This document shows, piece after piece, positions 11,453 to 17,715 of a stretch of DNA of 64,000 nucleotides. Within the stretch, counting starts at the first letter, position 1. Each line of letters begins with the position of its first letter. Position numbers and translations under genes: made by a program. The stretch is from Brevibacillus panacihumi W25 (lineage in GTDB: Bacteria; Bacillota; Bacilli; Brevibacillales; Brevibacillaceae). The DNA is taken from NCBI RefSeq assembly GCF_000503775.1, contig NZ_KI629785.1:1239501-1303500 (forward strand). The letters run 5' to 3'. Under the pieces are notes generated by a model, which saw only the letters and a list, made by a program, of their open reading frames with translations, was not told where the DNA came from and did not search any database.

Positions 11453-12636
11453 TTACTTGGGGGACAAATGCCGTTTCTCCACCATAAGAAACGTATCGTT
11501 CTTGCAGCCGGGGCAGCCCTGATTTTTCAACTCCTCAATCGTCGCCACCTCTCCTTGCAAACCCACGAACACTCCCTGGCCGCATTGCATGCAGCGATAG
11601 GTCCGCAACGTGCGTTTTACTTCCCCTGTATAGAGCGCGTCAGAAAAGGCATCCTTGACCTGGGCGTCCGTTACCGCGGTCGTCTCCAGGACGATCATTT
11701 GACTGCGGTTCGCAATCATTTCCGCTCCTTCGTACTGATTGAAATGCTGGTGGGCCGCATGGACGGTAAGCCCCATACGGACAAATTCCCGGTTCATCGC
11801 CAGCATGAAGTCAGGTGATTTATGGGCAAAGGACAGGAAGACCGGGAGCCCTTTCTTTTGCTTTAAGGCCGTGATCCCCCGTGAGACAAACAGGCTCATT
11901 CCTTGCAGCGTGTACGGCGGATCGGTGAAAAAGCAATCGTATTGCGCATGCCATTCGCTCGGAAGCGGATTTCGCAAATCCCAGGGAAAGCACCGGATGG
12001 GCAGTTGGGCGCGGTCTGCGATTTCATGGATGTGGCGTATAAATCGTTCATCGAGCTCCACCACATCGATCTGGGCTTGCGGCACCTCTATGCCGGGAAA
12101 GAGCTGCTGAAGGAGCATCCCCAATGAGACGCTGACCAAGTCATCATCCCCTACGCACAAGATCTTTTTGCCGACCAGGCTGTGGTGCTTCAAGCACAGG
12201 ATTGCTCTTCGCAGGCTGGTTTCCGTCGTGCATTTCGACTGGTCCAGCTGGACATTCACCTGCGGCCGACGCGCGAACTCTTCTTCCAATCTCTCCAGAA
12301 TCACCTTCATCTCAGGAAGGTGAACCGCCTCATTCATGTCCGCTTCCATGAGTTTCAGGTACAGCGCCCTGTTAATGCCTCGATAGCCACATCTTCGTTC
12401 TACCCATCGATTGGCCTCTTTCGTGCAATGGACGCCATTTTTTTGTTCGAGCGCGCCCTCGCGGATCAATTCTTTTTTGATCGCGGCCGCTACAGGGATG
12501 GGCAAAAAGGTTCTGCGGGCCAACTCCTTTGTGGAAATGCCCGGATGAAAATAGCAGGCGAGCACAGCTTTTCGATCACCTGGATTCCCTCATCTACCTT
12601 CACACGTGCTCCTACTTCTTCTACGTAATGTTTCAT
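11453..12636 (-). CDS. bpsA: N4-bis(aminopropyl)spermidine synthase-like protein, frameshifted near the N-terminus
   Basis: The long frame (11453-12565, 370 residues from a GTG) has BpsA hallmarks: a winged-helix-like N-terminal region (STKELARRTFLPIPVAAAI), GDDDLVSVSLGM for decarboxylated-SAM binding, the FTDPPYTLQG active-site loop and a C-terminal CxxC...CxxC zinc-ribbon-like segment. BpsA transfers aminopropyl groups to spermidine to make branched polyamines. The long frame has no ribosome binding site. The matching start is ATG 12636 with GAAGGAG (the site overlaps the mutS2-like stop), encoding MKHYVEEVGARVKVDEGIQVIE in another frame. The frames join only if one A is added in the AAAA run at 12569-12572, which restores VIEKAVLACYFHPG. 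A real mutation, a sequencing error or -1 slippage are all possible. Confidence 0.75.
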
Positions 12637-12640
12637 TGCG

Positions 12641-14527
12641 TCACTCCTTCAGGTTTTGTGAGATATGCTTGCGCTGCAGCTTGACTTTCTGATTTTGGAT
12701 CAGGACCACGATGTTGCCTTTCGCGTCCTCCTTCTCGTACACAACGCCGCTTTTTCCCAGATAGGAGACGAAGACCTCATCGCCCGGCTCCAGGGTTTTG
12801 TCTGTGTCTGGTTGTGGTTGTCGCACAGCCTCTGTCGCAGCCTCTTGCTTTGTCTCTGTTTTTGGTGTTTGCGGTTCGTCAGACTGATCTGGCTGCCACG
12901 CGGGCAAAAGTACCAGGGATGGCTCTGCATGCACGCTGTTTGCCGCTTGACCCGTGACATCCACCTCCGCAGCGAATTCACCCAGTCGTCCGGTTCGTGT
13001 GATCCCGTTTGCCGTGATCTCCCTTGAGCGCTCAATGATTTCGTTTGGCAGGCCGATTTTTAATGCGATGGAAAAGGCGTAGCTCTGTCCGGCTTCCCCG
13101 ATCCGCAAGCGATACAGCGGTTGAAGGGTCTGGGTATCGAACTCCATCCGGGCGTTTTCAAAGCCGGGTGTTGCCGCTGCGAAATTTTTGATTTCATTAA
13201 AATGCGTCGTCGCCACAATCGTCGCCCCTCGTTTGTGCAATTCCTCCAGGATGGCGATGGACAAGCCGACGCCTTCGCCCGGGTCAGTACCGGAGGCCAT
13301 TTCATCGATCAGGACGAGGGTCGAGGAATCTGTCATTCTCAGAATGTCGATCACATTATGAATGTGGGCGGAAAACGTGCTCAGAGCATGCTCAAGGCTT
13401 TGCCCATCGCCGATTTCTACTGCGATATGGCGAAAGATCGAAAACAAACTTCCCTCTTGAACCGGAACCAATAAGCCCGACTGGACCATGAGGGTGAGCA
13501 GGCCCACTGTTTTGAGCGTCAACGTCTTGCCGCCCGTATTGGGACCCGTAATAATCAGGGATTTATAGCGAAAGCCCGTCTCGAAGTTCAAGGGAACCAT
13601 CTCCCGGCCGAGCAAGGGATGGCGTGCTTCACGCAGCCGCATAAACCCTTGTTCATTGATTTGCACATTGGAGCCCCCGATCGCCAGCGCGTACTTCGCT
13701 TTGGCGAAGAGAAAATCGTAGATGCCTACTGTCTCTACGTTTACGTGAAGCTCGCGGCTGTACTCATCTGCGAGAGCGGATAGCGCCATCAGCACTTTCG
13801 TGACCTCACGCTCCTCCTCTCCCCTAAGTGCTTCAAGCTCAAATTGGAGTTGGCTGATATCACTCGGCTCTACATACACGGTTTGACCACTGGCAGACTC
13901 ATCCAGGACACTCCCTGTCACCTGCTTGCGGTATTCTTTCTTGATCGGAATGACGTAGCGTCCATTTCGCGTGCTGATAACATGCTCCTGAAGAATCGAT
14001 CGGTACCTGCCCATCAAGGCAGCCAGCTTGCTTTTCAGACGTTCTTCACACACGACGATCCGCTTTCGCACCTTCGCCAGATCCTTGCTGGCTGTATCCA
14101 TGACCTGCCCACGCCAGATGCTGTTCTCGATTTCTCCTTTCAGCCTAGTAAGCGGGGACATCGCGGTAGCAAAACTCGTCACATGCGGGGCTGCGTTTGC
14201 TTTTGCAGCCATGTACTTGATCAGTTGCGCGCAACTCGTCAGGAATTGGTGGATATGCCCTAAATCCTTCACGTTGAAGACATGATCCTTGCCCAATAAG
14301 TCCAAGATGCGCTCGATTCCTTCCAGCGAAGGAATCGGCACACTGGCCCCATGTTCCAGCAAAGCTTTGGCCTCCGCTACCTCATCCAGCTTTTTCCGCA
14401 ATTCCTTTACACCTGTCATAGGAACCATCTCCTCGACATGCCTTTGCCCGATATAAGAGAGGGCATATCCCTTGAGCTTTTCCTTGATTTTGTCGTACTC
14501 CAGTCTCTGCAAGGTTTGTTGATTCAT
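12641..14527 (-). CDS. MutS2-like ATPase lacking the Smr nuclease domain
   Basis: A 628-residue MutS-family protein. The core and lever region carries the MutS2-type segment GSVLDESASGQTVYVEP near residue 210, Walker A GPNTGGKT at 328-335 and a Walker B/D-loop LVLIDEMASGTDPGEG near 408. An Ala/Gln/Pro-rich linker then leads to a short KOW-like end (about 580-628, LEPGDEVFVSYLGKSGVVYEK). Standard MutS2 proteins are near 785 residues and end with an Smr endonuclease, which is absent here; the coiled coil is also short. In Bacillus subtilis MutS2 recognises collided ribosomes and splits them, so a ribosome role rather than mismatch repair is plausible (inference). The gene overlaps the bpsA ribosome binding site and has an unusual attenuator-like leader. 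Confidence 0.85.
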   Translation of the reverse strand: MNQQTLQRLEYDKIKEKLKGYALSYIGQRHVEEMVPMTGVKELRKKLDEVAEAKALLEHGASVPIPSLEGIERILDLLGKDHVFNVKDLGHIHQFLTSCAQLIKYMAAKANAAPHVTSFATAMSPLTRLKGEIENSIWRGQVMDTASKDLAKVRKRIVVCEERLKSKLAALMGRYRSILQEHVISTRNGRYVIPIKKEYRKQVTGSVLDESASGQTVYVEPSDISQLQFELEALRGEEEREVTKVLMALSALADEYSRELHVNVETVGIYDFLFAKAKYALAIGGSNVQINEQGFMRLREARHPLLGREMVPLNFETGFRYKSLIITGPNTGGKTLTLKTVGLLTLMVQSGLLVPVQEGSLFSIFRHIAVEIGDGQSLEHALSTFSAHIHNVIDILRMTDSSTLVLIDEMASGTDPGEGVGLSIAILEELHKRGATIVATTHFNEIKNFAAATPGFENARMEFDTQTLQPLYRLRIGEAGQSYAFSIALKIGLPNEIIERSREITANGITRTGRLGEFAAEVDVTGQAANSVHAEPSLVLLPAWQPDQSDEPQTPKTETKQEAATEAVRQPQPDTDKTLEPGDEVFVSYLGKSGVVYEKEDAKGNIVVLIQNQKVKLQRKHISQNLKE

Positions 14528-14548: not shown

Positions 14549-14593
14549 AAAAATAAAAAGGACGAAGAATGAACGAGTGTCATTCTCCGCCCT
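14549..14593 (-). terminator. Second leader terminator, just before the mutS2-like gene
   Basis: Minus-strand GGGCGGAGAATGA pairs with TCATTCTTCGTCC over 13 bp (two G-U wobbles) and is followed by TTTTTATTTTT, ending about 20 nt before the start codon. No promoter is visible between it and the gene, so transcription must read through it. Confidence 0.8.
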
Positions 14594-14620
14594 TTATGGC
14601 TCCCTATAAAAGTGCCCGCC

Positions 14621-14650
14621 AAAAAGAAAACCGTGCTGAAGACAGCACGG
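14621..14650 (-). terminator. First leader terminator
   Basis: Minus-strand CCGTGCTG-TCTT-CAGCACGG, a perfect 8-bp stem, followed by TTTTCTTTTT. It lies about 210 nt after the predicted start of transcription and 94 nt before the mutS2-like start codon. Confidence 0.85.
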
Positions 14651-14660
14651 ATTGTGGGCG

Positions 14661-14820
14661 CAATGTATAGGTCATATACCTAAGGCATTGTATGATATCC
14701 GCTGTTCTTAACTAAATCCCAAGGCCACTCATAAGCCATGACAAAATAAACCTTGCAAAAGCTGCAAAATTTTCATGGACTTACTACGAACCTCTGTATG
14801 GAATTTGATTAGTTAAGAAC
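14661..14820 (-). ncRNA. Structured leader RNA upstream of the mutS2-like gene
   Basis: A 12-bp perfect stem joins 14820-14809 (GTTCTTAACTAA) to 14715-14704 (TTAGTTAAGAAC) and encloses about 93 nt with smaller hairpins: TAAG-CCATGA with TCATGG-CTTA, and TTGCA-GCTTT-TGCAA. A further hairpin, CAATG...TAGGT-ATATG-ACCTA...CATTG, lies at 14690-14661, directly before the first terminator. The 5' arm of the long stem is also the end of the short ORF at 14832. It could be the regulatory leader of the mutS2-like gene or a separate small RNA ending at 14621. I could not match it to a known RNA class. Confidence 0.6.
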
Positions 14821-14832
14821 GACCACCGACAT
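14809..14832 (-). CDS. Seven-codon leader peptide ORF (MSVVVLN)
   Basis: ATG at 14832 is preceded by AAGGAG with an ideal 8-nt gap and is followed by six codons and TAA. The last codons (GTT CTT AAC TAA) form the 5' strand of the long leader stem, so a ribosome paused on this ORF would stop that stem from forming. Position, ribosome binding site and overlap with RNA structure are those of leader peptides of drug-inducible resistance genes (established for erm, cat and ABC-F genes). Its translation here is inferred. Confidence 0.55.
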   Translation of the reverse strand: MSVVVLN

Positions 14833-14862
14833 CAAAATCTCTCCTTAGACGAGGATACCCTC

Positions 14863-14892
14863 ACTATACCGCGTGTGATCCGGTCCAGTCAA
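14863..14892 (-). promoter_or_regulatory. Sigma-A promoter of the mutS2-like leader
   Basis: Minus-strand TTGACT (14892-14887), 18-bp spacer, TATAGT (14868-14863). Predicted start near 14857, giving a leader of about 330 nt. Confidence 0.7.
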
Positions 14893-14958: not shown

Positions 14959-16533
14959 ATGAAACGGACCTTCAGGCTCAAGAACCGAAACAATCAAATG
15001 GTGGAGATGGAAAGCGATCCATCATCCGAGGAAACTCCGATCCAGCTCGATCCATCGAATCCTGACATCGAGACTCGCATGGACTTCCTCCAGCAGAAGC
15101 TGGCTGATTGTTCGGATGTCGTCACCCATACCTTCTTGGCTGGACCCCAACGGAAGTGCGCCTTGATCTATCTGCATGGCATGGTAGATGTGAAGATGCT
15201 GCAGAAGGACATTCTACAGTCCATTTTAGCGATACGTGCCAGAAATGCCTCTGCGTTTACCCATGCTATTTTTGTCAACAAGCAACTTCCTGTCAGCGAT
15301 TATCGGGTAATTCCCACTACGGAAGGCATCTCCTCGATCCTCGAAGGCAATGTACTGCTACTCATCGATGGAGAAAGCCAAGCACTCGAGTTCCCTATAT
15401 CTTCAGTAAAAAAGCGTCAAATCAGCGAGCCTCCCAATGAATTGACGGTTAGGGGACCACGCGAAGCCTTTATCGAGAGTGCGGACGACAATCTGACCCT
15501 GCTGCGCAAGCGGTTAAAAACCTCTGACTTCAAGACGGAAACCATGCGCATCGGGACCAAAACGCAAACGAAGGTATTGATACTCTACATCAAGGGAGTC
15601 TGCAAGGAGGAGCTGGTACAGGATATTAAAGGCGTCCTGGAAAAGATCGAAATCGACAGCGTTCTCGGGAGCAGTTATTTGGAGGAATTTTTGGACAGCG
15701 CTCCTTTTTCCCCATTTCCCCAGGTGCAATATACAGAACGCCCGGATGTCATGAGCGCTGGACTTTTGGAGGGAAGAGTCGGCATCATCGTCGATGGTTC
15801 ACCTATTACGCTGATCGTCCCGGTGACGCTGCCGATGCTGCTCCAATCCGCAGAGGATTACTTTCAACGCCATGTGGCGAGCACCTGGATTCGCTGGATT
15901 CGTTATCTCTTCGCCTTCAGTTCCCTGGTCCTGCCATCCTTTTATATCGCCATCACGACGTTTCACCCGGAAATGATTCCGCAAAAGCTGTTGATCACGA
16001 TTGCTGGTTCCCGCGAAGTAGTTCCGTTTCCCGCTCTCATCGAAGCCATGATCATGGAGATTTCCTTCGAGGCTTTGCGCGAAGCAGCCATTCGCATCCC
16101 CAAACCGATCGGTCAGGCAGTTTCCATTATCGGCGCATTGGTCATTGGAACTGCCGCTGTTCAAGCGGGAATTGTTTCGGCTGCGATGGTGATCATCGTC
16201 TCGTTTACCGGAATCGCCTCGTTCATTATCCCTCACTTCGACCTGGGACTGGCATTTCGCTTGCTGCGTTTTCCAATCATGATCTTCGCGGGTTTGTTTG
16301 GCCTTTTCGGGATCATTTGCACGATGATCTTTCTCTATATCCACCTGATCAATTTGCGTCCTTTTGGCGTCCCGTACCTGACGCCCATGACACCTTTTGT
16401 ATGGAGTGACTTTAAAGACACACTGATCCGGGCACCCTGGTGGCTCATGCTCAAAAGGCCGGTCCAGTTTGGTCCCAATCGTGTCAGACAGCAATACTAC
16501 CGGGCACGGATTCCAAAGGAGGATGGAGATTGA
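14959..16533 (+). CDS. Spore germination receptor A subunit (GerA/GerKA family)
   Basis: A 524-residue protein with a large hydrophilic N-terminal domain (to about residue 310) and then four to six membrane segments, the usual GerAA/GerKA layout. Family features include DSVLGSSYLEEFLDSAPFSPFPQVQYTERPD in the N-domain (near 235-265), GREVVPFPALIEAMIMEISFEALREAAIRIPKPIGQAVSIIGALVIG across the first membrane segments, and the PFVWSDFKDTLIRAPWW tail, all noted by position. It forms a nutrient receptor in the spore inner membrane together with the B and C subunits. ATG 14959 fits the AGGGTG site better than the GTG at 14950. A forespore promoter is expected but I could not assign one with confidence. 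Confidence 0.9.
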   Translation: MKRTFRLKNRNNQMVEMESDPSSEETPIQLDPSNPDIETRMDFLQQKLADCSDVVTHTFLAGPQRKCALIYLHGMVDVKMLQKDILQSILAIRARNASAFTHAIFVNKQLPVSDYRVIPTTEGISSILEGNVLLLIDGESQALEFPISSVKKRQISEPPNELTVRGPREAFIESADDNLTLLRKRLKTSDFKTETMRIGTKTQTKVLILYIKGVCKEELVQDIKGVLEKIEIDSVLGSSYLEEFLDSAPFSPFPQVQYTERPDVMSAGLLEGRVGIIVDGSPITLIVPVTLPMLLQSAEDYFQRHVASTWIRWIRYLFAFSSLVLPSFYIAITTFHPEMIPQKLLITIAGSREVVPFPALIEAMIMEISFEALREAAIRIPKPIGQAVSIIGALVIGTAAVQAGIVSAAMVIIVSFTGIASFIIPHFDLGLAFRLLRFPIMIFAGLFGLFGIICTMIFLYIHLINLRPFGVPYLTPMTPFVWSDFKDTLIRAPWWLMLKRPVQFGPNRVRQQYYRARIPKEDGD

Positions 16534-17715
16534 ACAAATCCAGTTTGGCCTTCCTGGTCGTTCTTCCTCTGCTGTTCCTCGGAGGGTGCTGGTCTTCGGT
16601 TGAAATCAACGATCGAGCATTTGTCCGCATGATGGTCCTGGACAAGTCGGAAGAGGGCATCGAGCTTACTCTCTCACTCCCTCTTCCCAGTCGCTTGATA
16701 CCCGGACAATCAGGTGGTACTGGGAATCAAAACGGAAAACCATACACCTTTGTAATATAGGACGGGGCGTACAATTGGTGAAGCTTTTCGCTTGATCCAA
16801 TCCGACCTTTCCAGAAAAATTACTTTCGGTCAGACTAGCGCGGTTGTTATTGGCAGCAACCTGGCCAAGGAAGGAATACTGCCGATCCTCGAATTTATTG
16901 CCCGAGAACCGCGATTCCATATCAACTCGAACCTTTTTGTCATACAAGGAAAGGCTATTGATATAACACAGGCGCCTACCATACTGGAACGCTTCCCTAC
17001 TGAAATCCTTCTAAACTACATGAAAGAAGCGGTCATCGTCAAAACCAACACCAATGATGCTCTGATGGCCACTCACTACGGGGGAGACATGATCCTGCCC
17101 CTCCTCAAAATGGAGAGGAAGTCGATACCAAGTGAAAAAGGGCAAAATCTCTGGCTGCAAACGGCGGGAGGCGCGTTTTTTAAGCAGGGAAGGTTGGCAG
17201 GCTTGCTGGACATTCATCAAATGCGCGGTGCACTGTGGATTTTGGGCCAATTGGATACCTCCGTCATTACCGTGAAATCTGAAAAAGCCAACAGATATGT
17301 AAACTACATGGTCAAACGCTCGAACACTCGAATTAAACCGGTCTTCCATGGCGATCAGATTACAGTCGTCATTCGCACCAAAGCTACTGCCTCTCTCATT
17401 TCCAGTGATGCTGATGTGGATCCCCTAGATCCCCACGAACAGAAGCGAATGGAAAAAAAGTTGAACGCCAAAGTAAATGAGAGCATTATCCAGGCAATCG
17501 AACTGGCAAGAAAGGCTGACTCGGACGCCTACCAAATCAGCTCCCATCTGGATTGGACGCATCCGAAACTATGGAAAGAGAAAGCTCCGCAATGGAGAGA
17601 AATCTATCGCAATCAAATCAAATTTCTCCCCCAAGCTGAAATTTCGATAAAACGGGTAGGTTCCATCAAGCAGCCCGTGAGAATTCATTCTGTGGAAACG
17701 GAGGGAGACAAATGA
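16530..17715 (+). pseudogene. Spore germination lipoprotein GerC-type, interrupted by a frameshift
   Basis: TTG 16530 overlaps the gerA stop and has an AGGAGG site. The product starts with a lipoprotein signal (LAFLVVLPLLFLGGC) and GerC-like WSSVEINDRAFVRMMVLD. The frame hits TAG at 16758 after KPYTFVI. The rest of the protein continues in another frame (GRTIGEAFRLIQSDLSRKI, then to 17715, Ger(x)C C-terminal domain). Removing one base of TATAG at 16756-16760 joins the parts as TFVIRTGRTIGEAF, so a one-base insertion is the simplest explanation. If genuine, this receptor lacks its C subunit; a sequencing error is equally possible. Confidence 0.8.

Follow-up and report, generated by a model that had tools for sequence, protein, structure and literature searches.

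The minus strand of the window, as we call the whole 64,000-nucleotide stretch of DNA analysed here, carries a leader followed by two genes. The first gene (12641..14527) encodes MutS2p, a protein of 628 aa with the core, clamp and ATPase of MutS2 and a KOW-like region, lacking the Smr domain; the second gene of the operon (11453..12565) encodes a protein that Pfam assigns to the PF01861 (BpsA_C) family. The leader begins with a sigma-A type promoter (14863..14892), TTGACT-18-TATAGT, whose -35 (TTGACT, 14892-14887) and -10 (TATAGT, 14868-14863) give a 10/12 match with an 18-nt spacer. In an alignment of 20 leaders TTGAC and TATAGT are near-invariant and the central loop is variable. An SD, AAGGAG (14846-14841), precedes a seven-codon uORF (14832-14809), ATG TCG GTG GTC GTT CTT AAC TAA, which reads MSVVVLN*. 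Codons 5-7 and the stop codon constitute the 5' arm of a stem, P1 (GTTCTTAACTAA, 14820-14809), which can form 12 Watson-Crick pairs with a 3' arm, TTAGTTAAGAAC, at 14715-14704. In the minimum-energy fold an extension of P1 that spans the uORF start codon, GATGTCGG (14833-14826), adds 8 pairs with CGGATATC (14701-14694), a segment that is also part of the candidate antiterminator; with this extension nearly the whole uORF is sequestered in the predicted structure. Between the arms lies a small hairpin followed by TTTATTTT (14743..14768), a TTNTTT motif and candidate pause site by its likeness to the NusG-dependent vmlR pause. Two intrinsic terminators follow, T1 (14650-14631), with 8 bp, a tetraloop and a T tract at 14630-14621, and T2 (14595-14557), with 16 pairs and a T tract that stops about 20 nt ahead of the MutS2p ATG at 14527. 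The promoter, the SD, the seven-codon uORF, the 12-bp stem made from its last codons and the two terminators, the second about 20 nt from the gene, had all been described in an earlier, sequence-only reading of this DNA and are all located here; the uORF, P1, T1 and T2 support the attenuator-type architecture that it proposed. The predicted fold of the leader (333 nt) has an energy of -117.3 kcal/mol (z = -6.8 with 100 dinucleotide shuffles as reference), and the leader has no match in Rfam at gathering or lax thresholds.

Comparison across genomes indicates that the leader is real and strongly conserved. The uORF, P1 and the terminators are present in 19/19 MutS2p orthologues of the order. 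Among 76 upstream regions of MutS2p genes from Bacilli, chosen by protein and blind to the leaders (the genes were found via a profile of the MutS2p tail region), a comparable uORF occurs in about 73, a descriptive count given that the regular expression for the uORF was composed after the peptides were seen. Of these, 69 were found by the rule of an SD-preceded uORF and 4 by eye (L216, L246, L249 and L272); the latter have GTG starts, and one is only 3 codons long. The upstream regions of L275-L277 (3/76) have no uORF, and L275 and L277 lie on the longest branches of the tree. Conservation of the short ORF, which the sequence-only reading had set beforehand as a test of its own proposal, thus holds. 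A pattern search for the VLN-type stem, GTTCTTAACT...GTTAAGAAC at the window's spacing (gap 75-105), finds it in 24/39 genomes of the order and 103/247 Paenibacillaceae, whereas a reversed control pattern has 0 matches in every one of these genomes, so that the leader occurs beyond chance. Scanning GTDB species genomes yields at least 118 leader loci. The leader occurs across numerous Bacilli and in a small number of Clostridia. Among the matches listed, loci that possess an SD and extend far enough downstream have MutS2p or PF01861 as the next gene with few exceptions, most leaders controlling MutS2p; a second sample, for which the stem was the sole selection criterion, has no third gene family behind the leader. 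One leader precedes both genes in the window, in L081 and in L146. On this comparison the leader defines a two-family regulon of MutS2p and PF01861. The earlier proposal that it controls a MutS2-like gene is right as to the target and too narrow as to specificity, since the leader is common to the PF01861 family, whose member is second in the window operon. No proven resistance gene was found behind the leader, only MutS2p and PF01861.

The comparisons further indicate that the uORF contributes one strand to an anti-antiterminator stem and that compensatory changes preserve this stem. P1 reads GTTCTTAAC.../...GTTAAGAAC in the majority of relatives, and other clades keep the stem with unrelated arms (TTTATTAATCTAAA/TTTAGATTAATAAA, CGTTGTTCTTC/GAAGAACAACG, GTTGTTCTGAA/TTCAGAACAAC, GTAGTAGGTAT/ATACCTACTAT). 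Both arms change jointly, and the peptide with them (MNVGLLI*, MSGSVVLR*, MSAKVVLN*, MSVVGIN*, MSGVVSA*, MSLVVSSK*). Compared with dinucleotide shuffles, the best match complementary to the uORF end is stronger than expected, at a combined p = 2.9e-6 (six clades, one locus each); in the MSxVGxK and MSLVVSSK clades the single-locus P1 is not significant (p 0.13-0.52, shuffles). P1 is predicted in 107/108 folds of the free leader. When all leaders were placed in a single alignment, covariation analysis with RNAalifold recovered T1 alone, the alignment being too gappy. A reverse-strand reading, MISVVLN*, at the P1 3' arm is merely the mirror of P1. Leaders of the MSxVGxK and VSSK clades (L241, L242, L246, L251 and L253) repeat the 5' arm, as GTAGGTATCTTCAT, about 50 nt ahead of the gene; this copy is complementary to the region of the P1 3' arm, ATGAAGATACCTAC.

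T1 is found in 108/113 leaders and in 108/108 predicted folds of the free leader, and like P1 it is strongly supported. Support is moderate for an antiterminator, of which the earlier reading had named none. The candidate is the pairing of GAACAGCGGAT (14707-14697) with ATCCGTGCTGTCTTC (14652-14638), which overlaps the T1 5' arm; with the uORF masked and before synthesis of the T1 3' arm, the predicted fold of the window leader contains 10 of its pairs. Seven or more pairs are possible in 77% of leaders, versus 31% with shuffled arms, and relatives have complementary variants (CGGAT/ATCCG, CGGC/GCCG, CGGT/ACCG, CAGC/GCTG, AAGA-CACG/CGTG-TCTT). At equilibrium complete T1 outcompetes this pairing in 104/108 leaders, even under masking of the uORF; the switch would therefore have to act kinetically, being decided during transcription. 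A TTNTTT motif lies between the uORF and the P1 3' arm in 72/113 leaders versus 30.1 expected from shuffling; by analogy, such a motif after a hairpin could give the ribosome time. An antiterminator directed at T2, CATTGCGCCC with GGGCGGAGAATG, is plausible in Brevibacillus and not general (mean z -0.5). T2 has the same core, GGxxGAxxATGRAC..GTTCATxxTCTGCC, whether MutS2p or PF01861 follows, which is more than a plain terminator would require.

What does such a leader do? We consider it probable that it is a ribosome-sensing transcription attenuator for the operon of MutS2p and PF01861, that the arrest signal is most likely an antibiotic and that MutS2p most likely splits stalled ribosomes. 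In the off state the seven-codon uORF would be translated fast and vacated, P1 with its start-codon extension would fold and sequester the 3' arm, T1 would form and transcription would end. In the on state the P1 5' arm would be covered by a ribosome that has stalled on the uORF. The 3' arm (AAGAAC and CGGAT), left unpaired, would bind the T1 5' arm ahead of synthesis of the T1 3' arm, and RNA polymerase would read through into the operon. The model accounts in this way for passage past T1.

Switches of this kind are known. The vmlR leader of B. subtilis combines the uORF MIN, an anti-antiterminator hairpin, a NusG-dependent TTNTTT pause, an antiterminator and an intrinsic terminator (PMC9226507). 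The leader described here shares a short uORF within the anti-antiterminator hairpin, the TTNTTT motif, a candidate antiterminator and the intrinsic terminator; it differs in that the vmlR uORF has 3 codons of other sequence, that the vmlR target is an ABC-F (ARE-ABCF) protein, and that the last hairpin of vmlR hides the main SD whereas the second element here is a terminator. The cplR and msrD leaders likewise have a uORF that controls terminator read-through before a ribosome-protection gene (PMC10201436, PMC10314930), with other uORFs and targets. The analogy is close for vmlR and cplR and closest for hflXr (lmo0762) of Listeria monocytogenes, in which a uORF transcription attenuator makes a paralogue of a ribosome splitter inducible by drugs (PMC6310831). 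The same arrangement is found here: an attenuator stands before a paralogue of a splitting factor whose canonical copy lies elsewhere in the genome, and by the same analogy the paralogue is presumably inducible. The likeness is one of working, as MutS2p is not an HflX homologue: HflX is a GTPase and not an ATPase, the hflXr uORF has 14 aa with RLR, and hflXr has no PF01861 partner. On the model of vmlR and hflXr, the arrest signal would most likely be a ribosome-targeting antibiotic.

The uORF peptides bear on the nature of this signal. Orthologues encode MSVVVLN, MSAVVLN or MSVIVLN, and wider relatives M[SLT]xxVLN*, MSEVVSA*, MSAVGSK*, MSGSVVLR* or MNVGLLI*. Positions 2 and 3 of the peptide are under constraint, with mostly S/L/T and V/G/A, codon 4 is free (15 residue types), and the peptide ends vary by clade (VLN, VSA, GSK, LLI). 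The known arrest motifs RLR, a macrolide one, and IFVI are absent from all 57 distinct uORF peptides; given also the freedom of codon 4, the uORF sequence does not reveal a drug class. A requirement for Ala, Ser or Thr at positions 2-4, the context for phenicols and oxazolidinones, was considered and gave no clear signal (9/29 vs 8/14). The set of uORFs is in effect a natural library for identifying the molecule that stalls MSxxVLN. A free codon 4 and clade-variable ends imply that no single amino acid is monitored, which would suit a general sensor of slow translation, with the uORF reporting ribosome speed only, as in amino-acid shortage, cold or the stringent response. Residues 2 and 3 are, however, more constrained than pure speed sensing needs, and the architecture is nearest to that of drug-responsive leaders, and we regard such a sensor as rather unlikely.

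The proposed function in ribosome splitting rests on the relation of MutS2p to MutS2. MutS2p matches TIGR01069 with 589 bits over residues 2-506, the curated cut-off being 400, and its only Pfam domain is MutS_V, which confirms the MutS2-like ATPase named by the sequence-only reading. The solved structures nearest to it, 7qv3 and 8qpp, show ribosome-bound MutS2 of B. subtilis (E = 2.5e-110 for chain v of 7qv3). There is no Pfam match to Smr, and the TIGR01069 alignment stops at model position 512/790. The KOW region is without the uS10-binding QxxILK motif of B. subtilis, so that MutS2p may be recruited differently from MutS2. MutS2p forms a clade of its own, separated with support 100 from 7 canonical MutS2 proteins, in a tree of 58 sequences. 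A canonical mutS2 is also present in the window's genome (G000:C1:1119237), and the leader is absent from 7/7 canonical mutS2 loci of relatives. MutS2p thus shares core, clamp and ATPase with B. subtilis MutS2 (MutSB) and differs from it in the missing Smr domain, the KOW region, the usual tail, the separate clade and a leader of its own. This tail, LYPxxYDxD..RK, is found at the C-terminus of most MutS2p relatives where Smr would be; it is missing from the window protein and from B. panacihumi (region 12641-12800, minus strand). Activity on collided ribosomes, which the earlier reading had carried over from MutS2, is not simply transferable to an Smr-less protein whose KOW region lacks QxxILK. 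B. subtilis MutS2 splits stalled ribosomes, and cells that lose it become more sensitive to chloramphenicol, tetracycline and erythromycin; an ATPase mutant is likewise sensitive, whereas Smr or KOW mutants show no more than a modest sensitivity to erythromycin (PMC10897456). MutS2 relies on its ATPase far more than on Smr, and an Smr-less copy can therefore be active. By analogy with HflXr, the drug-inducible paralogue of HflX, MutS2p would most likely split stalled ribosomes without Smr.

In the window the PF01861 gene is frameshifted relative to its homologues, with about 25 N-terminal codons in another frame (12565-12641); this could be a sequencing error or decay, and the gene is intact in B. 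panacihumi (L081). On the plus strand, after a GerA homologue, a GerC-type lipoprotein gene at 16440-17715 is also apparently split by a frameshift, into ORFs at 16440-16760 and 16792-17715, a second broken frame within 5 kb. Leader-linked PF01861 proteins resemble BpsA, the N4-bis(aminopropyl)spermidine synthase of this family, in keeping GDDD, the aspartate of DPP and FNxY. BpsA ends in an acidic aminopropyl-carrier cluster (PMC12979288). The leader-linked proteins lack this cluster at the C-terminus and have there a conserved Cys4 motif, CxxC..CxxC; they also read DPPY for DPPE and have no aligned counterpart of Glu259. DPPY is reminiscent of amino-group methyltransferases. Modification of RNA or protein by the PF01861 partner is a lead, not a result. 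The family membership, together with the retained GDDD and DPP aspartate, also raises the thought that the uORF senses a metabolite: a small molecule such as a polyamine would cause arrest on MSxxVLN* and thereby feed back on a relative of the branched-polyamine synthase. DPPY instead of DPPE, the lack of an aligned Glu259 and Cys4 in place of the acidic C-terminus speak against this, as does the fact that most leaders control MutS2p, a relative of a ribosome-rescue factor, and not a polyamine gene; we judge metabolite sensing quite unlikely. P1 and T1 alone resemble a two-state RNA, and the leader could in principle be a riboswitch or protein-binding leader that works independently of translation, the uORF being incidental. 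This is very improbable: clades that differ in stem sequence retain the SD, the start codon and the frame of the uORF, the central loop varies, and Rfam has no match. That two terminators in series act constitutively, the leader yielding a small RNA and a low basal expression of mutS2p, is hardly credible, since the uORF is conserved and the mutually exclusive pairings exceed their controls.

Returning to the ribosome-sensing attenuator, a broader reading is that one shared class of uORF attenuator controls, in Bacilli and some Clostridia, a drug-inducible regulon for ribosome rescue and resistance, in which an Smr-less MutS2 would split drug-stalled ribosomes and a PF01861/Cys4 enzyme would modify the ribosome or another translation component. 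We put this forward tentatively, as a possibility that has somewhat more against it than for it. If it is true, a further inducible ribosome-directed defence, built on a MutS-family ATPase, exists besides ABC-F and HflXr, and the PF01861 proteins of mesophiles have a role in translation stress. The regulon, as distinct from the switch, is new. The literature searched, with subscription papers outside its scope, has no description of a MutS2 leader, of MutS2 attenuation or of a MutS2 paralogue in Paenibacillus, in agreement with the earlier remark that the system is apparently undescribed. No match pointing to a phage origin was found. The tail-region profile detects MutS2p in 103/399 Bacilli genomes, about a quarter of those sampled and many of them from common soil genera, and it is conceivable that the system is a widespread, overlooked form of intrinsic tolerance. 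On the Paenibacillus plasmid pHD01 (L359, NZ_CP013204.1) a MutS2p gene and a stretch of leader lie near an integrase gene, the protein being annotated there only as mismatch repair protein MutS.
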